From: Mesorhizobium opportunistum WSM2075
Lineage (GTDB): Bacteria > Pseudomonadota > Alphaproteobacteria > Rhizobiales > Rhizobiaceae
Direction of reading: 5' to 3'
DNA: 64,000 bases
NCBI RefSeq assembly: GCF_000176035.2
Contig: NC_015675.1
Location: 2,360,001-2,424,000 of the forward strand
Every line of letters starts with the position of its first letter. Position 1 is the first letter of the stretch. Position numbers and translations under genes: made by a program. Positions 11,404 to 22,230 of this stretch are shown here, piece after piece. Below the pieces are notes generated by a model that saw nothing but the letters and a program-made list of their open reading frames with translations, was not told the DNA's origin and did not search any database.

Positions 11404-12552
11404 ATGATGCGGCTCAGCGACTGTCACAATTTTTCCGATTTCCGGCGGATGGCACAGCGAAAGCTGCCGGGCCCGATCTTCAATTACATCGATGGCGCGG
11501 CCGATGACGAGGTCACTTATCGCCGCAACACCGCAAGTTTCGAAAGCTGTGACCTGGTCCCCAACGTCCTGCGCGGGGTGAGCGAGATCGACATGTCGGT
11601 GACCGTCATGGGCCAGAAATTGGCTATGCCGTTCTATTGCTCGCCGACTGCCCTGCAGCGGCTTTTCCACCATCAGGGCGAAAGGGCGGTCGCCAAAGCC
11701 GCGGCCAAATACGGCACGATGTTCGGTGTTTCCACGCTCGGCACCGTCAGCCTCGAGGAGGTGCGCAGGATCAGCGGCAGCCCGCAGATCTACCAGTTCT
11801 ACTTCCACCGAGATCGCGGCCTCAACCGGGCGATGATACAGCGGGCAAAGCAGGTTGGCGTAGAAGTGATGATGCTGACCGTCGACAGCATCACCGGGGG
11901 CAATCGCGAACGCGACAAGCGCACTGGCTTTGCCATTCCCTTCAAACTCAACCTTGCCGGCATGGCGCAGTTCGCGCTGAAGCCGGCTTGGGCAGTCAAC
12001 TATTTCACCCATGAGGGCTTCAAGTTGCCGCAGCTCGACGAACATGTCGACATGGGCGGCGGCACGATGTCGATCAGCCGCTATTTCACCGAGATGCTCG
12101 ATCCGTCGATGACCTGGGACGATGTCGCCGAGATGGTCAGGCAGTGGTCGGGTGCGTTCTGCCTCAAGGGTATCATGTCGGTGGAGGATGCCAGACGCGC
12201 CGTCGATATCGGCTGCAGCGGCATCGTACTGTCCAACCATGGCGGGCGGCAGTTGGATGGCTCGCGGGCGGCATTCGACCAGCTTGCCGAGGTCGTCGAT
12301 GCCGTCGGCGACAAGATCGACGTCATCATGGATGGTGGTGTGCAGCGCGGCACCCATGTGCTGAAGGCACTGTCGCTCGGGGCCAAGGCCGTCGGCATTG
12401 GCCGTTACTATATGTTTCCTCTGGCGGCGGCCGGCCAACCGGGTGTCGAAAGGGCGCTCGAGCAGATGCGGGTCGAGGTCGAACGCGGCATGAAGCTGAT
12501 GGGCTGCAGTTCGATCGGACAATTGTCGCGCTCCAATCTCCGTTTCAGATAG
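11404..12552 (+). CDS. FMN-dependent alpha-hydroxy-acid dehydrogenase (L-lactate dehydrogenase-like)
   Basis: About 382 residues starting at one of two adjacent ATGs (11404/11407). It has the TIM-barrel family's [11 protein letters not shown] start (about 26-36), the substrate-region RERDKRTGF (about 160-168), active-site His in [10 protein letters not shown] (about 262-271) and the FMN-phosphate region [18 protein letters not shown] (about 302-319). It oxidises a 2-hydroxy acid, most often L-lactate, passing electrons to the respiratory chain or oxygen. Substrate cannot be fixed by reading. Usual family length is 370-390. Confidence 0.87.
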
Positions 12553-12739
12553 TCGGGGTCGGGCGGACCATCGCGGATCATGCGGATGCGGAATATGGCT
12601 GGGTCGGCGAGATCGATCCCTCGCCGATGCGGCTTGTCTCAGCCGCCACATCGCGCTAGCCGTTGTCGGTCGCGCCGGGTTACGATTGGACCCTGCCGCC
12701 TTTCACGCGTGTCAGTTGGATCATCCGGAGAGCCGTCTC

Positions 12740-13285
12740 ATGAAACCCTCGCTCGAAGACACGCTGCTGGCGTCGATCCGCACCATTCCGGACTATCCCA
12801 AGCCCGGCATCCTGTTTCGCGACATCACCACGCTGCTTGGCAATGCGCGCGCCTTCCGCCGCGCCATCGACGAGCTGGTGCATCCCTATGCCGGCCAGAA
12901 GATCGACAAGATCGCCGGTATCGAGGCGCGCGGCTTCATCCTTGGCGGCGCCGTCGCCCACCAGCTCTCGGCTGGCTTCGTGCCGATCCGCAAGAAGGGC
13001 AAGCTGCCCTACGAGACCGTGCGCGTCGCCTACAGCCTGGAATACGGGCTCGACGAGATGGAGATGCACAAGGACGGCGTTGCCCCTGGAGAGAAGGTGA
13101 TCCTCGTCGACGACCTGATCGCCACTGGCGGCACGGCGGAGGCGGCGGTCAAGCTCTTGCGCCAGATCGGCGCCGATATCCTCGCCGCCTGCTTCGTCAT
13201 CGACCTGCCAGACCTCGGCGGGCGCGCCAAGCTGGAAGCGCTTGGCGTGCCGGTGCGGACGCTGATCGGGTTCGAGGGGCATTGA
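12740..13285 (+). CDS. apt: Adenine phosphoribosyltransferase
   Basis: 181 residues; converts adenine plus PRPP to AMP in purine salvage. It shows the [16 protein letters not shown]-terminal signature (about 15-29), [10 protein letters not shown] (about 61-70) and the PRPP-binding loop [13 protein letters not shown] (about 121-133). The start at 12740 gives the standard N-terminus [16 protein letters not shown]; a GGAGAG sequence precedes it. The 187 bp before it hold no other recognisable gene. A small palindromic repeat follows it. Confidence 0.96.
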
Positions 13286-13299
13286 GGGAGCAGTTCTTC

Positions 13300-13322
13300 C
13301 CTTCTCCCGCAAGGGGAGAAGG
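13300..13322. repeat. Small palindrome CCTTCTCCC/GGGGAGAAGG
   Basis: Imperfect hairpin with a GCAA loop between the convergent apt and MaoC genes. Related hairpins occur at 46187-46210, 52134-52156 and 56778-56800, all intergenic, so this is a dispersed family and not simply a terminator. Confidence 0.7.
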
Positions 13323-13339
13323 AAGAGCGCCCAGCGCCG

Positions 13340-13810
13340 CTACTCCGTCCTCACCAGCACGGCGCTCTCGAACTCCAGCACCTTGTCGCCGGCCGAGGCG
13401 AAGGCCTCGCAGCGCAGTGCCAGCAGGCGCCAGCCGGGGCGCGAGGCGATCGGGCGGTGGGAAAGGGCGGTGCGCGTGAAGGTGACGGTCTCGCCGGCGT
13501 AGACTGGCTTCAGCCATTTCAGGTTCTTGAAGCCGGGCGAGGGGCCGAATTCGGGGACCATGCCGGGGCCGTTCCAGGCAGCGCCCCCGGTGTCCATGCC
13601 GGCTTCGAGATTGAGTTTCATCCAGGTGGCGGCGGTATGCCAGCCGGACGCGCAGAGGCCGCCGAGCACGCTCTTCCTGGCGGCTTCCTCGTCGACATGG
13701 AAGATCTGCGGGTCGTATTTGCGGGCGAAGGCCTTGATCGCCTCGGGCTCGAATGTGTGCGAGCCCAGCGTCACGGTGGTGCCGATGCGGAAGAATTCGT
13801 CCAGGGTCAT
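13340..13810 (-). CDS. MaoC-family dehydratase (second of pair)
   Basis: 156 residues with a hot-dog fold of the (R)-specific enoyl-CoA hydratase/MaoC type. The hydratase motif appears as YDPQIFHVDEEAARKS (about 32-47) with the conserved Asp and His, followed by GLCASGWHTAATWM (about 52-65). It likely acts on an acyl-CoA or hydroxyacyl-CoA. It overlaps the upstream paralogue by 4 bp (ATGA), so the two subunits are probably made together and may form a heterodimer. Confidence 0.87.
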   Translation of the reverse strand: MTLDEFFRIGTTVTLGSHTFEPEAIKAFARKYDPQIFHVDEEAARKSVLGGLCASGWHTAATWMKLNLEAGMDTGGAAWNGPGMVPEFGPSPGFKNLKWLKPVYAGETVTFTRTALSHRPIASRPGWRLLALRCEAFASAGDKVLEFESAVLVRTE

Positions 13811-14277
13811 GCCAAGCTCCCCGCGGCCTCACGCGTGAGGAACATGACGGAATTCTCAAGCTCGAAAACGCTTTCGCCGCGCTGGTTGAACAGTTCGCTG
13901 CGCATGGTGACGAAGCCCAGTTGCGGTTTCGATTTCGACAGGCGCCTGGCGATGACCACGAGGCTGCCGGTGAGCTGGTCGCCGGCCAGGACCGGCTTCT
14001 TCCATTTGACCTGGTCGACGCCGGGCGCGCCCTGGCAGGTGGAGTCCAGCAGGAAGGCATCGCACAGCATGCGCATGAACATGGCGCAGGTATGCCAGCC
14101 CGAGGCCGCCAGCCCGCCAAGGATGCTGGCCTTGCCGGCCTCCTCGTCGAGATGCATCGGCTGGGCGTCGAATTCCCGCGCGAATTCGACGATCTCGGCG
14201 GCACTTACCAGCTTGGTGCCGAGGTCGAGCGAGATGCCCTCGACGAAGTCCTCATAGGCCCAGGTTTTTGCAGTCAT
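13807..14277 (-). CDS. MaoC-family dehydratase (first of pair)
   Basis: A 156-residue paralogue of the next gene with the same hot-dog motif, FDAQPMHLDEEAGKAS (about 36-51), and GLAASGWHTCAMFM. The expected catalytic Asp and His are present. It is translationally coupled to the downstream copy through an ATGA overlap at 13807-13810. Equal length and coupling suggest a two-chain dehydratase. Pathway unknown: fatty-acid, PHA or aromatic acyl-CoA metabolism are all possible. Confidence 0.87.
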   Translation of the reverse strand: MTAKTWAYEDFVEGISLDLGTKLVSAAEIVEFAREFDAQPMHLDEEAGKASILGGLAASGWHTCAMFMRMLCDAFLLDSTCQGAPGVDQVKWKKPVLAGDQLTGSLVVIARRLSKSKPQLGFVTMRSELFNQRGESVFELENSVMFLTREAAGSLA

Positions 14278-14403
14278 GGTCTGAAATCCGGCTCAGGAAT
14301 CCGCGATCCCCAGGGATCGGGCATCCCGGATGCAGGCCGGGCGCGGTTTGGTCAAGTTATTTCTGGTGCGCCAGCAACAGGCAGTCCGCCCGTGGCGAAC
14401 CGA

Positions 14404-15378
14404 TCAAAGCCAGCCGCGGCGGCGGAAATACCAGAAGGGCAGGATCGCCGACAGGATCATCAGGCCGATGGCGAAGGGATAGCCAAGCTGCCATTTCAGC
14501 TCGGGAATGACATCGAAATTCATGCCGTAGATGGAGGCGACCAGCGTTGGTGGCAGGAAGATGACGGCGGCAACCGAGAAGATCTTGATGATGGCGTTCT
14601 GCTCGATCGAGATCATGCCGAGCGTGGCGTCGAGCAGGAAGGAGATCTTCTGCGACAGGAAGGTGGCGTGGTCGGCAAGCGACAGCACGTCGCGCGACAA
14701 GGTCTTGATGCGGGCGCGAATATCCTTGCTCATCCTGGTCTGGGTGGCGACATGGGCGAGGAAACCGGCGAGGCGCTGCAGCGAGATCAGGCTGTCGCGC
14801 ACGGAGGAGGCGATGTCCTCCTTGCGGCCGATGGCTTTCAGCAGCTCCTGGAAGTCGCGGTTGCGCTTCGACGCCTTGGTCGAGGTCGCCTGGAAGATGT
14901 CACGCGAGATCACTTCCACGTCACGGCCGGCGCGCTCGAGAATGTCGGCAAGGCGATCGACGATCGCTTCCAGCAGGCCGATCAGGATGGTGTCGCCGCT
15001 GGTGCATCCGGTCGCCGCCTTCTCCGCGCGCAGCGGAAAGGTCTTGAACGCCTTCGGTTCGTGGTAGCGAACGGTGATCAGCCTGTTGCCGGCAAGCGCG
15101 AACGTGACCGGCGACATCAGGGGATCGTCGACCTCGGTCTGGGCGGGCAGAGTGGCGGTCATGAAGTAGGCGCCGTCCTCGATGTAGAGGCGGCTGGAAA
15201 TCTCGATCTCCTCCATCTCCTCGCGGGTCGGGATGGCGATGCCGAGCCAGCTTTCGATGGTGGCCTCTTCCTCCTTGGTCGGATTGACGAGATCGGCCCA
15301 GACCACCTTGTCGCCATTGGCCTGGAGGTCGTCGGTGAGGCGCAGGCGATCATTGTCGACGACGAAGGCCTTGATCAT
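14404..15378 (-). CDS. corA: CorA-family divalent cation transporter
   Basis: A 324-residue inner-membrane Mg2+ (or Co2+/Ni2+) channel. A large cytoplasmic N-terminal domain with a long helical stalk (about 150-260) leads to two C-terminal membrane helices. The selectivity signature sits in the loop as YGMNF (about 283-287). The basic tail RRRGWL ends the protein. Family length is usually 310-330. It is monocistronic; 126 bp separates it from the MaoC pair. Ion specificity cannot be told. Confidence 0.92.
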   Translation of the reverse strand: MIKAFVVDNDRLRLTDDLQANGDKVVWADLVNPTKEEEATIESWLGIAIPTREEMEEIEISSRLYIEDGAYFMTATLPAQTEVDDPLMSPVTFALAGNRLITVRYHEPKAFKTFPLRAEKAATGCTSGDTILIGLLEAIVDRLADILERAGRDVEVISRDIFQATSTKASKRNRDFQELLKAIGRKEDIASSVRDSLISLQRLAGFLAHVATQTRMSKDIRARIKTLSRDVLSLADHATFLSQKISFLLDATLGMISIEQNAIIKIFSVAAVIFLPPTLVASIYGMNFDVIPELKWQLGYPFAIGLMILSAILPFWYFRRRGWL

Positions 15379-15593
15379 CGCCGGATCTCCCCTGCTGGAT
15401 TAAAGGGCGTTTGGATTGATGTCGGATTGCACGGCTCTTCGTCGCATGCGCCGAGCGTGTGCCTGCCGCTTAGACCCGTGCCATGACAAAATCAAGACAA
15501 GTGGCCATTGGACGGGATGGCACAGGGCTCGGAGATACGCCGATGGTGCATCGCCGCAGGATGGCGACGATGCTTTGGATGCCCAGCGTGCGA
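15379..15593. other. Intergenic region between corA and the ychF 3'-end copy
   Basis: A 215-bp region holding the corA promoter side. Under the integration model it is the original downstream flank of ychF. No gene is supported: an open frame at 15483-15791 (+) runs antisense through the duplicated ychF end and is taken as a by-product. Confidence 0.5.
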
Positions 15594-15716
15594 GCATCAC
15601 GTGTTGAACTTGAACAGCATGATGTCGCCGTCCTGGACGACATATTCCTTGCCTTCGTCGCGTGCCTTGCCGGCTTCCTTGGCCGCTACTTCGCCGCCCA
15701 GCGCGACGAAGTCGTT
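15594..15716 (-). repeat. Displaced copy of the ychF 3' end (left boundary of cassette)
   Basis: 123 bp matching 17648-17770 at 122 positions. The single difference (15603 G, 17657 A) is synonymous (Asn codon AAC/AAT) when read as ychF on the minus strand. The copy holds the last 39 codons, the stop and 3 bp beyond. Direct repeats at both ends of the tcmP cassette look like attL/attR of an element that integrates in the 3' end of ychF and restores the reading frame. Confidence 0.92.
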
Positions 15717-15886
15717 ACAGGCCCTTATAGATGGTTCATGCGCGCGTTTCAGCTTGTTGCATTTGCTTTAGATACTTTGTTGAAGAGATAAGGGGTACTT
15801 TTCGGGGCTACATTGCTCGTTCCTCGAACGCCAAATTGGCTAGACACTTGCCCATTTTCGAGGTTGGATAGTGCGCTTGGGCGGGG
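15717..15886. other. AT-richer leader region of the tcmP cassette
   Basis: 170 bp immediately inside the left repeat, clearly richer in A+T than the surrounding genome. It presumably contains the tcmP promoter. A weak GGGCGGGG precedes the ATG at 15887. No recombinase remnant is visible. Confidence 0.5.
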
Positions 15887-16813
15887 ATGTTAAATTTGGC
15901 AAAACATGTCTTTGGGGGACCTGACACGTCGAGAAAATTGAAATGTCTGCAAGAGTATTTGCAGGCGTTTTCGATTGCGCTTCGAAATCAGGATTTTGCT
16001 TGCATCTACATCGACGCATTTGCTGGTTCTGGCACTCGCACCGAAGTGCGCCCCGGTTTGCCGCTATTCGGGCCGGATTTTGCTGAGCCAGAGGAAATCA
16101 CGACACCAGGGTCGGCCCGAATCGCGATCGAAATCGATCCACCAATGCACTCGATTGTTCTCATTGAACAAGACACGTTCCGGTTCTCAGAACTTCAAAC
16201 TCTGGTTGAGGAGTATCCAGATCGCAAAATCATCGTGCGCAATGGGGACGCCAATAAACTCGTGCAGCGTCTATGCACGAATACCCCCTGGCGAGGTTCC
16301 GAAATTGTCGGCCGTGGAATACGTGGGGTTATTTTTCTCGATCCGTACGGCATGGAGGTGTCTTGGGAGACGGTGGAGGCAATTGCCAAAACCGAGGCAC
16401 TGGATTGTTGGTACTTCTTTCCGCTGTCCGGCCTCTACAGGAATGCTCCGCACGATCCGGCAAAGCTCGATCTTGGCAAGCAAGCAAGTCTAGATAGGGT
16501 TCTAGGCGCCAGCGACTGGCGGTCTCGTTGGTATAATCATGAAATTGCGCGTGAAGACATTTTCGAAACGCAGGGGCTGGCGGCGCGCCGAGCTGATGTA
16601 AACGCGATTGAAGCCTATGTGAAAGAACGCCTTGAAACCGCCTTCAAAGGTGCCGTGCTTGATCCGGTTCGGCTTCACCACAGGAACGGTGCGCCGCTTG
16701 CATCGCTTTTCTTTGCGGTTTCGAATACTAGCTCGGCAGCCGTGAAGCTGGCGACCAAGATGGCATCTCACATTCTCAATTCTGGTAGGTCATCCCACAA
16801 GCGCTCACGATAG
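15887..16813 (+). CDS. tcmP: Three-Cys-motif partner protein TcmP
   Basis: 308 residues with the layout of TcmP proteins: an N-terminal FGGPDTSRKLKCLQEYL (9-25), a Rossmann SAM-methyltransferase-like motif YIDAFAGSG (41-49), an acidic motif-II candidate VLIEQD (91-96) and a motif-IV-like FLDPYGMEVSW (150-160). It is predicted to be a nucleotide- or SAM-binding partner of the three-Cys protein encoded convergently; the biochemical role of this family is not established to my knowledge. Codons are AT-richer than in the neighbours, and it lies between duplicated ychF ends, both signs of transfer. Its last 46 bp overlap the partner gene's 3' end. Confidence 0.8.
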   Translation: MLNLAKHVFGGPDTSRKLKCLQEYLQAFSIALRNQDFACIYIDAFAGSGTRTEVRPGLPLFGPDFAEPEEITTPGSARIAIEIDPPMHSIVLIEQDTFRFSELQTLVEEYPDRKIIVRNGDANKLVQRLCTNTPWRGSEIVGRGIRGVIFLDPYGMEVSWETVEAIAKTEALDCWYFFPLSGLYRNAPHDPAKLDLGKQASLDRVLGASDWRSRWYNHEIAREDIFETQGLAARRADVNAIEAYVKERLETAFKGAVLDPVRLHHRNGAPLASLFFAVSNTSSAAVKLATKMASHILNSGRSSHKRSR

Positions 16814-17520
16814 GTTCGACCTGTTGCCTTCTTGTTCTTCCCGCCCCACTGTTTGAAAAAGAATGCGGCATCGGCGTCGGTGCATTGGTCGAAGATTTCG
16901 TCGATCCACTTCGGGTCCATTGGACGTGCGTTGGGGCCGCTTTCTCCACCGACTATAGCCCAGTGGATGCCTGCTAGGCTTGCGCCCGCCACTGAGCCTA
17001 TCAGCGGTTCATAGGAGACAAACCTTATGGCCGCTGGAACAGCTCGAAGCTCATCCAATCTGTGAAGCACCCGGCTATCCTCAACGCTTGTTCCAAGCCA
17101 TACGTTCGACAGAACTTCAAATGCTTTCGTTGATAGAATTTCTGCCATCCTATCTGGCCGCTTGGTGAGGATTTGATAAGTGTGGCGCGGGGTGGCGCCC
17201 ATAACGCGCCAAACGTCGCGGATGAAGTCCACCGGTACATCCGCGTGGAAAAGATCGGACATCGAGTTGACGAAAACACGGCGCGGTTTCTTCCAAGACG
17301 CAGGAATGTCGAGAGAACCGCTATCGAGCCTTATTTTGCCTGTCCACTTTGCCCTTCCACCGCTTTCCCGTGTCAATCCCACGTACTTCTCGACTCCCAT
17401 CGCTTCGAGGCGGGCAGCCATCCGCATGGCGTAGCAGTTGGTGCATCCTGCCGTAAGGATCGTGCATCCGGCAACAGGGTTCCACGTCGCGTCAGTCCAT
17501 TCGATTGATGTCTCGGCCAT
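16768..17520 (-). CDS. Three-Cys phage Gp37/Gp68-type protein (DUF5131)
   Basis: 250 residues of the Gp37/Gp68 (DUF5131) type first known from phages. The N-terminus has IEWTDATWNPVAGC and the Cys set C19-x6-C26-x2-C29 with NCYA. This spacing suggests an Fe-S cluster and resembles radical-SAM-like proteins, though the classical CxxxCxxC is absent. Also visible are FVNSMSDLFH (about 82-91), ILTKRPDRM (about 117-125), SYEPLIG (about 169-175), WAIVGGESGPNARPM (about 187-201) and FFFKQWGGKNKK (about 220-231). It is paired with TcmP, convergent and 46-bp overlapping. A role in nucleic-acid modification or defence is an inference only. Confidence 0.82.
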   Translation of the reverse strand: MAETSIEWTDATWNPVAGCTILTAGCTNCYAMRMAARLEAMGVEKYVGLTRESGGRAKWTGKIRLDSGSLDIPASWKKPRRVFVNSMSDLFHADVPVDFIRDVWRVMGATPRHTYQILTKRPDRMAEILSTKAFEVLSNVWLGTSVEDSRVLHRLDELRAVPAAIRFVSYEPLIGSVAGASLAGIHWAIVGGESGPNARPMDPKWIDEIFDQCTDADAAFFFKQWGGKNKKATGRTYRERLWDDLPELRM

Positions 17521-17647
17521 TTTCCGCTCTTCTCTTCGTCTGCTTTAAAACTGCCCGAAGATCGTAAATACCCCGATAAGTCTATTGTAGGAATTTCTTC
17601 ATATCAAGAATGTTGGCAGACAGCAGTCCGAGACGCTCTTTCCCGAA

Positions 17648-17770
17648 GCATCACGTATTGAACTTGAACAGCATGATGTCGCCGTCCTGGACGACATATT
17701 CCTTGCCTTCGTCGCGTGCCTTGCCGGCTTCCTTGGCCGCTACTTCGCCGCCCAGCGCGACGAAGTCGTT
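17648..17770 (-). repeat. ychF 3'-end copy within the intact gene (right boundary of cassette)
   Basis: Right member of the 123-bp direct repeat; it overlaps the last 39 codons and stop of the intact ychF. If the cassette integrated as icd- or prfC-type elements do, this part of ychF came in with the element and the left copy is the original end. Confidence 0.9.
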
Positions 17771-18754
17771 GTAGGCGATGGTCTGGGCGCGGATGAAGCC
17801 GCGTTCGAAATCGGTGTGGATGACGCCGGCGGCCTGCGGGGCCTTGTCGCCCTTGTGGATGGTCCAGGCGCGCGTCTCCTTGGGCCCGACGGTGAAATAG
17901 GTGATGAGGTGTAGCAGCTCGTAGCCGGCGCGGATCACCTTGTTCAGGCCGGGCTCGTCGAGCCCGAGCGAGGACAGGAACTCCATCTCCTCTTCGTCCG
18001 AGAGCTGGGCGACTTCGGCCTCGATCGCGGCCGAGATCACCACGGTGCCGGCGCCCTGGGCGGTCGCCATCTTTTCCACGGCCCTGGTGTGTTCGTTGCC
18101 GGTAGCGGCGTCGGCCTCGGCGACGTTGCAGACATAGAGCACGGGATGCGAGGTCAAGAGGTTCAGTCCCTGCAGGATGCGCAAATCCTCGGCCGAAATG
18201 CCCTTGAGCAGGATGCGGGTCGGCTTGCCGGCCTGCAGCAGTTCGAGCGCTGCCTCCATCATCGGCAGCACGGTCGTCGCTTCCTTGTCCTTGGTCGAAG
18301 CGCGCTTGCGGATCTGCACGATGCGGCGCTCGAGGCTGTCGAGGTCGGCGAGCATCAGCTCGGTCTCGACCGTCTCGGCATCGGCGACGGGGTCGATGCG
18401 GCCCTCGACATGGGTGATGTCGTCATCCTCGAAGCAGCGCAGCACGTGCACGATGGCGTCGACCTCGCGGATGTTGGCGAGGAACTGGTTGCCCAGCCCT
18501 TCGCCCTTCGAGGCACCGCGCACCAGGCCAGCGATGTCGACGAAGGAGATGCGGGTCGGGATGATCTCCTTCGACTTGCCGATCGCGGCGATCTTGCCTA
18601 GCCGCGGATCGGGCACCGCCACCTCGCCGGTGTTCGGTTCGATGGTGCAGAAGGGATAGTTGGCGGCCTGCGCCGCCGCCGTTCTGGTCAACGCGTTAAA
18701 GAGCGTGGACTTGCCGACGTTGGGCAAGCCAACGATGCCGCATTTGAAACCCAT
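17651..18754 (-). CDS. ychF: Redox-regulated ATPase YchF (Obg-family)
   Basis: A 367-residue translation-associated P-loop ATPase. Walker A is GLPNVGKSTLFNAL (about 8-21). The G-domain motifs appear as DIAGLVRGASKGEGLGN (about 73-89) and an NxxE-type base-recognition motif, NVAEAD, in place of NKxD (about 212-217), which fits preference for ATP. A TGS domain ends the protein ([27 protein letters not shown]). YchF binds ribosomes and modulates stress responses. pth and rplY lie upstream on the same strand, but separated by a protease/inhibitor pair. Confidence 0.95.
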   Translation of the reverse strand: MGFKCGIVGLPNVGKSTLFNALTRTAAAQAANYPFCTIEPNTGEVAVPDPRLGKIAAIGKSKEIIPTRISFVDIAGLVRGASKGEGLGNQFLANIREVDAIVHVLRCFEDDDITHVEGRIDPVADAETVETELMLADLDSLERRIVQIRKRASTKDKEATTVLPMMEAALELLQAGKPTRILLKGISAEDLRILQGLNLLTSHPVLYVCNVAEADAATGNEHTRAVEKMATAQGAGTVVISAAIEAEVAQLSDEEEMEFLSSLGLDEPGLNKVIRAGYELLHLITYFTVGPKETRAWTIHKGDKAPQAAGVIHTDFERGFIRAQTIAYNDFVALGGEVAAKEAGKARDEGKEYVVQDGDIMLFKFNT

Positions 18755-18910
18755 TTTGTCCAGTCCTATCGGGAATTCGAAATTTGATGAGGGCTATGGG
18801 CGATAGGGGGGAGGAACGTCAAGCCCCGCGGTCGCACGGGCAGGGCCGCGAAAGGCCGCATCGGAGGGCGATCGGCGGTTTTGAGCAGTTCGAACCGCGC
18901 TTTTAGGACG

Positions 18911-19207
18911 CTACTTCACGTCGATGGTGACCGGCTGAACGGCCCGGACAATGTCTTCCCACGGCCGCTTCAGTTCAAAGCGAAGCTGGATCTGTCCAGG
19001 CTTGCCGCAGGAAACCGTGAAACGCTGCAAGGTTGTGCCGCCTATCCCTGTGTCATCGGGCTTGCTCTCAATCTGGGTGATGGTGCAGCCCGCCGGCGCC
19101 GGCGGAACCGACCAGACGACGCCCGCGCCAGGCGTCGCCGGCAATTCCACGACAATCTGCTCGCCGATTGCGGGTTGGAAATTCATGGTCGCTCGTTCGT
19201 TCGCCAT
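18911..19207 (-). CDS. Chagasin-type (I42) cysteine-protease inhibitor
   Basis: 98 residues from ATG 19207, which follows AAGGAAG by 6 nt; an in-frame ATG at 19252 gives a less likely 113-residue form. The chagasin layout is recognisable: a first loop LPATPGAGVVW (about 21-31, in place of NPTTGYxW), GIGGTTLQRF (about 53-62) and the diagnostic LKRPWE (about 79-84). Chagasins block papain-family enzymes by pressing three loops into the active cleft. The gene lies 68 bp downstream of a papain-family protease on the same strand, so it is probably the cognate inhibitor. No signal peptide is visible. Confidence 0.82.
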   Translation of the reverse strand: MANERATMNFQPAIGEQIVVELPATPGAGVVWSVPPAPAGCTITQIESKPDDTGIGGTTLQRFTVSCGKPGQIQLRFELKRPWEDIVRAVQPVTIDVK

Positions 19208-19275
19208 CGCATCTTCCTTTGTGGCGACGGGCGGCGCGCCGATGCGCGCCACCTTCCGATCCCATCAACGTCGCC

Positions 19276-21150
19276 TCAGTTCCAGCCGTTGCTGGGAGCC
19301 GTCTGCCAACGATGATATAGGGCGAGATCCGTGCCGCGCACGAAGACTTCCATACGGCCGTCCTTGTTGTTGACGACCGCCGTGTCGCCGACGATGCCGC
19401 CGCCCAGCGATGCCCAGCCGCTCCAGCCATTGCTCGGCGCGGTCTGCCAGATATGCCAGCAGGCCCCGTCGGTGCCACGGGCGAAGATTTCCATGCGCCC
19501 GTCGGCATTGTGGCCGAGCGCCGGCGCGCTGGTGATGATGCCGCCCAGCGATGCCCAGCCGCTCCAGCCATTGTTGGGTGCGGTCTGCCAGATGTGCCAG
19601 AGCGCATTGTCGGTGCCGCGCCCGAACACTTCGAGGCGGCCGTCCTTGTTCTGGCCAACCGCAAGGTCGCTGGTCAAAATGCCACCCAGCGAGGCCCATG
19701 AACTCCAGCCATTGTTGGGGGCTGTCTGCCAGAGATGCACCACTGCCCCGTTGTTGGTACGGGCGAAGACCTCGATGCGGCCGTCCTTGTTGTTGGACGC
19801 TACCGGATTGCCCGATATCTGGACGCCAAGCGAAGCCCAGCCGCTCCAGCCCCGTTGCGGGCCGCCTTGCCAGATGTGCCAGAGGCCACCATCATTGCCC
19901 CTGGCGAAGACTTCTACCCGTCCGTCGACATTGCGCACCGCACTCGGGTCGCTGGTGATGCCGCCGCCGAGCGAAGCCCAGCCGCTCCAGCCGCTGCTGG
20001 GTGCGGTCTGCCAGATGTGCCACAGGGCGCCGTCGGCTCCCCTGGCGAACGCCTCAAGCCGGCCGTCGGCATTGCTGATGACCGCCGGGGTGCTGGTGAT
20101 GATGCCGCCCAGCGATGCCCAGCCGCCCCAGCCATTGTTGGGCACGGTCTGCCAGATGTGCCAGAGCGCGTTGTCGGTGCCGCGCGCGAAGACCTCGATG
20201 CGGCCATCCTTGTTGTTGCCGGCGACGGCTTCGGTGGTGAGCTTGCCGCCCAACGGCTGCCAGCCGGACGATGGCAGGATGATGCCGGTTGCACCGTACA
20301 TCGGATACAGCTGGCCGTCATACTTGAAGTCGTCATAGCTGATCTTGCCAAAGCCGCCGATGCCCCAGGTCGTGTCCCACGAGTTCTTGACGATCCAGCA
20401 CTGCTCCGCCTCGGAATAGCCGATGACGAGAACGCAGTGGCCGCCGGCGACATCGCCGGTGACGTGGTGGTAGATGCCGCCCGAATAATTGAAGAAGTCA
20501 TTGTAGACGGTGAAGCAGCCGGCGACCGGACCGACACTGCTGAGATGGTTCTTGATCGCGTTCGCATCCACCAGCTTGTGCACGGCCGTCAACTTGCTGA
20601 TGCGCGCCGGACGGTTCGGCGCGGCGTGGCAGGCAGGCGGGCCGCTCCAGATATCGTTGTTGGGGAATGCCGACGGGTAGGGGAAGCCGGCTTCGTCGCA
20701 GACGCCGCGTCCCTTGATCTGGTCGAGGCACTGGTCGGGCCACCAGCCGCCGCAATTGGCGCCGTGCGATGAGCAGAAATGCGAATCGGCTTCCGACAGG
20801 TCGAACCAGCGGCCGGTCTCGATATGCGACATCGCCTCGATAAGGCCGACGGAGCCAAACGAGACGCAGGAGCCACATCCGCCCTGGTTCTTGACCGGGG
20901 TAATATGATTGCCGTTCTTGTTGCGCCAGTCGACGGCGGGCGCAAAACCCGGCGCCGCGGCAAGCGACGGCGGCTGGTTGCGTGCCGCCGCGACCAGGGC
21001 GATGGCTTCATTGCTGGGAATGGCGCCCAGCATCTGCAGGCGTTTTTGGGGGTCCATCAGCGAGATCGGGGTTTCGGCGGCCCGCCATCTGGCATTGTTG
21101 GTTGTCAGGGCTCTGCTGAGCGCAGAGAACGTCAAAGGATTTCGGGCCAT
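19276..21150 (-). CDS. Papain-family (C1) cysteine protease fused to seven-bladed PLL-like propeller
   Basis: 624 residues from ATG 21150, with GAGGGG 8 nt upstream. After a short N-terminal region (1-70) comes a C1A domain: oxyanion Gln89 and nucleophile Cys95 in KNQGGCGSCVSF, His238 in AGGHCVLVIGY and Asn256 in WIVKNSWDTTWG, so the catalytic set is intact. Papain's Trp after Cys is Val here. Residues 294-624 form seven 47-residue repeats of the type DGRxEVFARGTDNALWHIWQ and GWSGWASLGG, closed by sharing of the first and last blades. This is typical of PLL lectin-like propellers (DUF346), which bind glycans. No signal peptide is obvious. Confidence 0.88.
   Translation of the reverse strand: MARNPLTFSALSRALTTNNARWRAAETPISLMDPQKRLQMLGAIPSNEAIALVAAARNQPPSLAAAPGFAPAVDWRNKNGNHITPVKNQGGCGSCVSFGSVGLIEAMSHIETGRWFDLSEADSHFCSSHGANCGGWWPDQCLDQIKGRGVCDEAGFPYPSAFPNNDIWSGPPACHAAPNRPARISKLTAVHKLVDANAIKNHLSSVGPVAGCFTVYNDFFNYSGGIYHHVTGDVAGGHCVLVIGYSEAEQCWIVKNSWDTTWGIGGFGKISYDDFKYDGQLYPMYGATGIILPSSGWQPLGGKLTTEAVAGNNKDGRIEVFARGTDNALWHIWQTVPNNGWGGWASLGGIITSTPAVISNADGRLEAFARGADGALWHIWQTAPSSGWSGWASLGGGITSDPSAVRNVDGRVEVFARGNDGGLWHIWQGGPQRGWSGWASLGVQISGNPVASNNKDGRIEVFARTNNGAVVHLWQTAPNNGWSSWASLGGILTSDLAVGQNKDGRLEVFGRGTDNALWHIWQTAPNNGWSGWASLGGIITSAPALGHNADGRMEIFARGTDGACWHIWQTAPSNGWSGWASLGGGIVGDTAVVNNKDGRMEVFVRGTDLALYHRWQTAPSNGWN
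19279..20271 (-). repeat. Seven tandem coding repeats (propeller blades)
   Basis: About 141-bp units in the 3' half of the protease gene. They are well conserved at DNA level (CAGATGTGCCA and GGCCGTC recur in each unit on the plus strand). Recent homogenisation between units is likely. They should not be mistaken for a non-coding array. Confidence 0.9.
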
Positions 21151-21471
21151 AAACAGTCCCCTCGTGTCGGTTGAAACGTGCGACTGCTCGGCAAAGCCGA
21201 AAGGCATGCGACAACCACACCTTGCATCCATGGCCTTCCGCGAGGTGGTGGTCTGTGAGGGATTTCACTATTGGATATGCTGACGGCGCATCGGCGGCCC
21301 AAGCCGCATCGGTCGGCAAGCTTCAGGCCGTGCTCGCTGCTTTCGCGCGGGCAGACAATTCCGGCAGCTCTATCCAGGCGATCGCATGGTCAGGGATGCA
21401 TCAGCCGTGGCGGTCTGAAATTGTCAGCCGGCGTTCGTTCGCTCCGGGATGGTCGCCCGGCGGCAGCCGTT
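21151..21471. other. Region between pth and the protease gene
   Basis: A 321-bp stretch between the 3' end of pth and the protease start. Only the protease ribosome-binding site and presumably its promoter lie here. Open frames through it are not coding-like. I see no terminator with a clear T-run. Confidence 0.5.
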
Positions 21472-22230
21472 TCAGCCGTCGTTTTTCCCGAACAGCTTTT
21501 TCAGCATGGCGGCCATCGGGCCACTTTCCGGCAGCTTGGCCGGCGCCTGCTGCGGGCGCGCCTGGCGGATGTGGCTCTGGGCTTTCGGGCCTTGCGCCTT
21601 GGGGGCCTTGGGCGGCGGGCGGTCGTCGTCGCCGGTCGGCACGAGCTTGTCGCGCAAGGCGAGTGTCACCCGGTTCATGAAGGAATTGTCGTCGCCCTTG
21701 GCCAGCAAGCCGGCATCGTCGGCTATGGTGTCGAGCAGAACGTCCAGCCATTCGCGGTCGGCCTTGGCGAAGTCGCCGAGGACATGGCCATGCACCATCT
21801 CCTTGACGCCGGGATGGCCGACGCCGATGCGAACACGGCGGAAGTCCTTGCCGATATGCTGGTCGAGCGAGCGGATGCCGTTGTGGCCACCGGAGCCACC
21901 ACCGACCTTGACCCGAACCTTGCCCGCTGCAAGGTCGATCTCGTCGTAGAAGACGGTGAGCGCCTCGGGGCCAAGCTTGTAGAAGCGCAGCAATTCGCCG
22001 ACCGACTGGCCGGACAGGTTCATGAAGGTCTGCGGTTTGATCAGGATGATCTTTTCGCCGCCGAGCGTGCCCTCGGCGATCAGGCCCTGGAATTTCTTCG
22101 ACCAGGGCGAGAAGGAATGGCGGCGGGCGATTGCGTCCGCCGCCATGAACCCGACATTGTGCCGGTTATCAGCGTATTTCGCGCCCGGATTGCCGAGGCC
22201 TGCAAAGACAAGCACTGTCTTCTCTGGCAT
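21472..22230 (-). CDS. pth: Peptidyl-tRNA hydrolase
   Basis: 252 residues; releases peptides from prematurely dropped peptidyl-tRNAs. Pth motifs are complete: [19 protein letters not shown] (about 9-27) with catalytic His24 and Asn14, [20 protein letters not shown] (about 64-83), [20 protein letters not shown] (about 93-112) and GGHNGIRS. It is longer than the E. coli enzyme (194) because of a Pro/Ala/Lys-rich C-terminal tail, common in rhizobia. It follows rplY by 23 bp. Its normal downstream partner ychF is displaced by the protease/chagasin pair. Confidence 0.95.

Follow-up and report, generated by a model that had tools for sequence, protein, structure and literature searches.

A second ychF 3' end beside a candidate defence gene pair in Mesorhizobium as a probable scar of one-sided exchange at a gene-swapping spot

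We analyzed a 64,000-nt stretch of the Mesorhizobium opportunistum WSM2075 genome (NC_015675.1, positions 2,360,001 to 2,424,000; hereafter, the window), in which a two-gene cassette, tcmP and a DUF5131 gene, lies between the complete GTPase gene ychF and a second, displaced copy of the ychF 3' end that precedes corA. The second ychF end is probably a recombination scar, left by a one-sided exchange at a ychF-anchored spot where genes are swapped and which repeatedly houses a candidate defence pair. Many variable spots in genomes lack integrases, and their mode of gene gain is debated. A displaced 3' tail of the core gene at the border of such a spot offers a simple footprint by which sequence data could reveal gene addition that was one-sided and anchored by homology; it is also a warning that a duplicated gene end is not automatically an attachment site.

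The repeat comprises the final 120 nt of ychF and 4 nt past the stop codon, 124 nt in all, with an offset of 2054 between the copies and one mismatch. An earlier note on this DNA had described a duplicated ychF 3' end with one synonymous difference; the duplication and the difference are real, and the length given there (123 nt, 3 nt past the stop) is corrected here. The mismatch (G at 15603 versus A at 17657 on the + strand) falls in an Asn codon near the end of ychF, which reads AAC in the displaced copy and AAT in ychF. Outside the repeat, likeness drops on either side, and the wider alignment covers 130 nt at 98%. A similarity search with the repeat against the whole 6.88-Mb single-contig genome returned exactly two copies and no third; the second was found at E 1.4e-58, so the repeat is not due to chance. 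G+C content, taken segment by segment over positions 12000-22000, is 0.47-0.57 between the copies and 0.59-0.71 outside them. As the earlier note had it, this lower-GC insert holds two genes and no integrase: only tcmP and the DUF5131 gene are family-supported, the other open reading frames (ORFs) listed between the copies are short or overlap these two, and neither the ORF list nor the family searches gave a further family-supported gene there. On its far side, the displaced stub continues into a spacer resembling those of empty alleles.

To place this arrangement in context, we compared the window with ychF and up to 10 kb of downstream DNA from 140 of 145 other Mesorhizobium genomes, a sample of 141 loci. 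Empty ychF-corA sites, which the earlier note had suggested looking for, are common: corA follows ychF within 400 bp in 75 loci and lies 818-6206 bp away in 40; in the other 26, no corA was found within the DNA fetched. The TcmP/DUF5131 pair occupies the junction in 9 of the 141 loci. The DUF5131 gene is ychF-proximal in six carriers (the window, L038, L042, L080, L110, and L118), and the pair is inverted in three (L034, L109, and L159). When each locus was searched with its own ychF end, a long second end appeared in the window only; it was absent from all eight other pair carriers and from all 140 other fetched loci, which gave matches of 13-48 nt. Five relatives carry the same ~2-kb two-gene insert and nothing more. 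In a genus-wide search, the ychF end was matched in all 146 genomes; besides the window's second copy, a weaker second match occurred in 16 (E 1.8e-5 or weaker), and the three listed among them span 32-36 nt and are located elsewhere. No other species exceeded 97% identity in this search, and both copies in the window are of host type.

We made three side observations at these sites. Among the 26 loci in which corA was not found (for example, L036, L081, and L119), maoC-like genes start within ~340 bp in 15, and the stretch of L099 is too short. In 11 loci (for example, L035, L040, and L076), the ychF-corA gap is only ~20 bp, and the corA promoter region is seemingly deleted. Carriers L038, L110, and L118, whose flanks are nearest to the loci with ~20-bp gaps, have a corA-proximal spacer.

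The ychF-corA spacer is a local insertion hotspot, with the same core flanks, varied cargo, and empty alleles. Spacers of at least 700 bp occur in 40 of 115 ychF-corA intervals, as against 1/115 for corA-maoC, 0/139 for maoC-maoC, 11/132 for maoC-apt, and 0/38 for apt-lldD. We scanned 58 ORFs, chosen by hand from the 161 listed at other occupied sites. They include amidohydrolases (11), APH-type phosphotransferases (10), xanthine/uracil permeases (8), and one DDE transposase; none of the 58 matched an integrase family, the search for an integrase at this site having been another suggestion of the earlier note, and PADLOC gave no match for them. Cargo that recurs in these spacers (for example, in L033, L039, and L049) consists of an amidohydrolase with a xanthine/uracil permease, and of APH-type phosphotransferase genes.

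The cargo does not share the history of its flanks. Between L034 and L109, identity is 97.8-99.1% in the cargo, 93.5% in ychF, and 96.2% in corA. The cargo of L118 is nearest to that of L042, and its flanks group with L038 and L110. The trees of cargo and flanks conflict, and the pair looks horizontally acquired; judged by these comparisons, the cargo passes between species. In the TcmP tree, the inverted group joins off-site copies from two genomes, G063 and G119 (support 89.2/72, which is modest). This grouping, together with the opposite orientation, suggests that the pair reached the site at least twice. No mobile families were seen near the off-site pairs of G063 and G119, where 2 of 10 neighboring ORFs matched Pfam.

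The two cassette genes are convergent and overlap by 46 bp at their 3' ends. TcmP scores 232.3 bits against TIGR04474 (curated cut-off, 53), and the DUF5131 protein scores 314.6 bits against PF07505 (cut-off, 28.9); the score against TIGR04471, radical SAM mobile pair protein A, stays below its cut-off (69 versus 355 bits). Both model genes of the PADLOC candidate system PDC-M41 are matched and adjacent (E 7.4e-76 and 9.4e-104). TcmP has an RlmJ-like methyltransferase fold. The predicted structure of the DUF5131 protein is radical-SAM-like, and its C19-x6-C26-x2-C29 motif is unchanged in 34 of 34 aligned sequences; a Foldseek search with this model gave a best E of 0.011, and VIA-align was a re-examination of those same matches. 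The cargo, an RlmJ-like methyltransferase with a radical-SAM-like protein, would probably act against phages or be a phage-borne pair.

TcmP occurs in 15 of the 146 genomes of the genus, always with a DUF5131 neighbor. Eleven of these are close relatives (77-100% identical), and 9 of the 11 are at ychF, making the ychF-corA spacer a repeated home of this candidate defence pair in Mesorhizobium. Outside the genus, the pair did not adjoin ychF in any of 17 genomes with a match (18 loci, L202-L219; flanks up to ~1.5 kb), and ychF was not near the pair in any of 67 viral or phage loci. Related DNA was found in 75 plasmid records, mostly the DUF5131 part, with none spanning 80% of the query. Two records named as Synechococcus phage, PP438429.1 and OM868082.1 (L220 and L221), carry a pair 74% and 80% identical to the rhizobial one; the host may be mislabeled, or the pair may have been transferred recently. 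In L080 (genome G125), tcmP is interrupted, its tblastn match being in several pieces, and the DUF5131 match is full-length. The window's DUF5131 gene is less like its relatives (~76-86%, in segments over the gene) than tcmP is (82-91% with four), as if the cassette itself were mosaic. The features of the locus are collected in Table 1. Beyond ychF, the window also encodes a papain-type cysteine protease (19276-21231, minus strand) with a C-terminal array of 141-nt (47-amino-acid) repeats matching DUF346/FG-GAP.

Table 1. Features of the ychF-corA locus in the window
Feature	Positions	Strand	Remarks
ychF, complete, 367 amino acids	17651-18754	-	3' end is the functional repeat copy
Functional repeat copy: 120-nt ychF end with 4 nt past the stop	17647-17770	-	
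42-nt spacer, from the ychF stop to the part conserved among cassettes	17609-17650	-	
CTTGATATGAAG, ychF-side cassette edge	17597-17608	-	Close likeness in five same-orientation relatives; putatively promoter-like
DUF5131 gene	16768-17520	-	PF07505; PADLOC PDC-M41B/M30B
tcmP	15887-16813	+	TIGR04474; PADLOC PDC-M41A
Non-coding distal cassette flank	15717-15886		
Proposed illegitimate junction, cassette / ychF stub	15716-15717		Minus strand reads GGGCCTGT / AACGACTTCG
Displaced ychF 3' stub, running into the native ychF-corA spacer	15593-15716	-	
Native ychF-corA spacer	15379-15592		Contains CTTGATTTTGTCATGGCACGGGTCTAAG (15469-15496, minus strand), putatively promoter-like and present also in empty relatives
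corA	14404-15378	-	

How might the second ychF end have arisen? We propose that a cell whose ychF-corA site was empty would have received donor DNA arranged naturally as ychF end, DUF5131/tcmP, corA. On one side, a RecA-type exchange would have occurred in the conserved ychF end; on the other, the end of the cassette, just before the donor corA promoter, would have been joined illegitimately to position -120 of ychF. Two routes are conceivable: (i) direct, homology-facilitated illegitimate recombination; and (ii) closure of the fragment to a circle, followed by single-crossover integration. The product would be a complete ychF, the cassette, a ychF stub (the recipient's old tail), the native spacer, and corA. 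We infer the order of these steps and the mechanism as a whole, whereas the anatomy, the empty sites, the repeat-free carriers, the displaced tails elsewhere, and the movement of cargo from species to species are observed.

Several features of the two junctions bear on this model. Over its 170 nt, the distal cassette flank shares 65-68% identity with its counterpart in four relatives, which there extends as far as the corA promoter. Where this counterpart ends, 20 nt of the relatives agree with ychF at the joint in 13 of 20 positions, an imperfect likeness that is the best of ~580 registers (the next has 11); the ranking was done with L080, whose 20 nt are those of L038 and L042. In the ychF end, the window and five carriers are identical over uninterrupted stretches of 19-83 nt, which offer homology for an exchange that may have taken place there. 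The only mismatch between the repeat copies is near the 3' end, and upstream of it the perfect run is 83 nt with L038 and 59 nt with L042 and L110. A query spanning the ychF-side edge (17540-17660) matched three other genomes in the cassette part only (query positions 19-70). Two points weigh against the exchange model: (i) neither ychF copy departs from the host type, which leaves some probability to duplication in place; and (ii) no donor was found, the source of the 42-nt spacer being absent among the 146 genomes.

Displaced ychF tails also occur outside Mesorhizobium. A family-wide search with the YchF C-terminus covered 394 genomes, four of which gave two matches: the window's own, G175, G495, and G525. 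We did not count G495, where two adjacent overlapping pieces lie in seemingly one gene, or G525, where one piece is at a contig start. In G175 (L293, 997-4209), the order is ychF, corA, a 110-nt ychF tail (85%) that begins 4 nt past the corA stop, and a YiiX/C92 lipoprotein-like gene. In G393 (L314, 138-2250), a second species of the same genus, ychF is followed after 65 nt by a 40-nt ychF tail (97.5%), the lipoprotein-like gene, and corA. G393 surfaced only in a DNA search of G175's genus, and short tails elsewhere in the family may be missed. Among their congeners, ychF directly precedes the lipoprotein gene in G273, G338, and G439 and corA in G478, and the DNA behind both tails resembles, by eye, the natural ychF-lipoprotein junction. 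Since both orders are natural in congeners, G175 reads as one natural ychF allele set in front of the other allele's tail.

A possible analogue lies at corA in the Mesorhizobium genome G119 (L072, 7125-8850), where corA, a DUF6602 gene, and a displaced corA 3' tail of ~70 nt follow one another. The DUF6602 gene matches PADLOC models of PD-(D/E)XK/NucC nucleases, and the stub is up to 92.5% identical to some other species' corA ends versus 85.3% to its own. This would be the second case of a defence-like cassette that adjoins a repeated gene end. Counts of displaced tails were 3/167 for ychF (including G175 and G393, which were added for their tails; among the 141 Mesorhizobium loci the count is 1), 1/127 for corA, 0/163 and 0/162 for the maoC genes, 0/150 for apt, and 1/38 for lldD. 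The lldD match (30 nt, inverted) was judged by inspection to be chance or paralogy, as were the 45-51-nt matches (~80%, other strand) that a control with the ychF 5' end gave in 4 of 167 loci.

Among the alternatives, duplication in place survives best. A staggered break or a template switch would have doubled the last 120 nt of the host's ychF around a captured cassette fragment, which would explain why neither copy resembles another species above 97%; the G175 stub is likewise nearest to its own ychF. However, the insert starts right behind ychF, its 42-nt spacer is within the range of natural carriers, and it ends near their corA promoter edge, so a captured fragment would need both of its ends there by luck. 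The occurrence of both neighbor orders as natural alleles in G175's genus also speaks for exchange between alleles, and on balance we regard in-place duplication as unlikely. The repeat may also lend the cassette a mobility that needs no integrase: by RecA exchange, the two copies would release a 2054-bp circle with one ychF end, able to insert into the ychF of other Mesorhizobium. We hold this to be doubtful. Were it true, the conserved tail of a core gene would provide a homology arm that travels with the cargo, and 'tail cassettes' would be the form in which defence-like genes spread (at ychF, and perhaps at corA with the DUF6602 gene of G119).

Islands of the icd and prfC type integrate in the 3' end of a gene, which attP rebuilds, so that the 3' end is present twice around the cargo. 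The window likewise has direct repeats of a gene 3' end around cargo, and the earlier note had read them as an attachment-type duplication. A recombinase acting in trans, or since lost, would then have placed the cassette in the ychF 3' end. The anatomy fits, with a complete gene, cargo, a displaced 3' end, and empty sites; displaced tails are also present in two species of another genus, and the 5' limit of one of these is similar (-120 in the window, ~-110 in G175); and most close tcmP relatives in the genus are at ychF. Yet eight other species carry this pair at this junction and lack a long second ychF end, and the pair occurs in both orientations. No integrase family was found in the 58 cargo ORFs scanned, the repeat lengths vary (110 nt in G175 and only 40 nt in G393), and the DNA between the G175 copies is corA, an ordinary ychF neighbor in relatives. 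The attachment-site reading accordingly fares poorly, and we consider an integrase-type island end improbable. The literature searched, which left most subscription journals outside its coverage, held no report of the ychF 3' end as an integration site, as the earlier note had supposed. Pneumococcal prophages adjoining ychF are nonetheless described in the relevant passages of PMC8637289 and PMC10383233, upstream of ychF in the latter.

An assembly artefact or the residue of a larger island is very improbable: beyond the general point that repeats can mislead assemblers, nothing was found in favor of an artefact in a single-contig genome with a distinguishing base and differing outer flanks on both sides, and the five relatives with just the ~2-kb two-gene insert argue against the larger island that the earlier note had considered.

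The cargo itself corresponds to PDC-M41 (PADLOC, TIGR04474, and PF07505), known here as a candidate system by sequence: both genes match and are adjacent and convergent. The difference is one of location: in the genomes searched, with flanks of ~1.5 kb, no genus but Mesorhizobium has the pair beside ychF. For the proposed exchange, the closest parallel is E. coli conjugation as described in the sections of PMC3240628 that we drew on: among 60 recombinants from one class, 56 yielded a polymerase chain reaction product diagnostic of partial anchor-gene duplication, and in the 14 that were sequenced 109-950 bp was duplicated, which was attributed to circularization and single crossover. One homologous side, one illegitimate side, and a partial anchor-gene duplication are the shared elements; the window's case differs in being natural and interspecies, with imperfect similarity at the junction, and it is read from sequence alone. 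For hotspots flanked by core genes and lacking mobile elements, exchange via recombination in the flanking core genes has been proposed (PMC5635113, in part). The ychF-corA spacer resembles these in its variable cargo between two conserved genes, the lack of an integrase among the cargo scanned, and its cargo/flank incongruence, the sole sign of recombination seen at ychF-corA; in contrast, the product retained in the window is additive and includes a displaced gene tail. Finally, homology-facilitated illegitimate recombination has been proposed for the immunity-gene arrays of the Vibrio cholerae type VI secretion system (PMC5361080, in part), in which additions behind a conserved anchor push older 3' parts downstream, as the cassette appears to have done here. 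In the window, however, the anchor is a housekeeping GTPase gene, the cargo is a defence-like pair, and what has been pushed downstream is a 124-nt stub rather than a gene.
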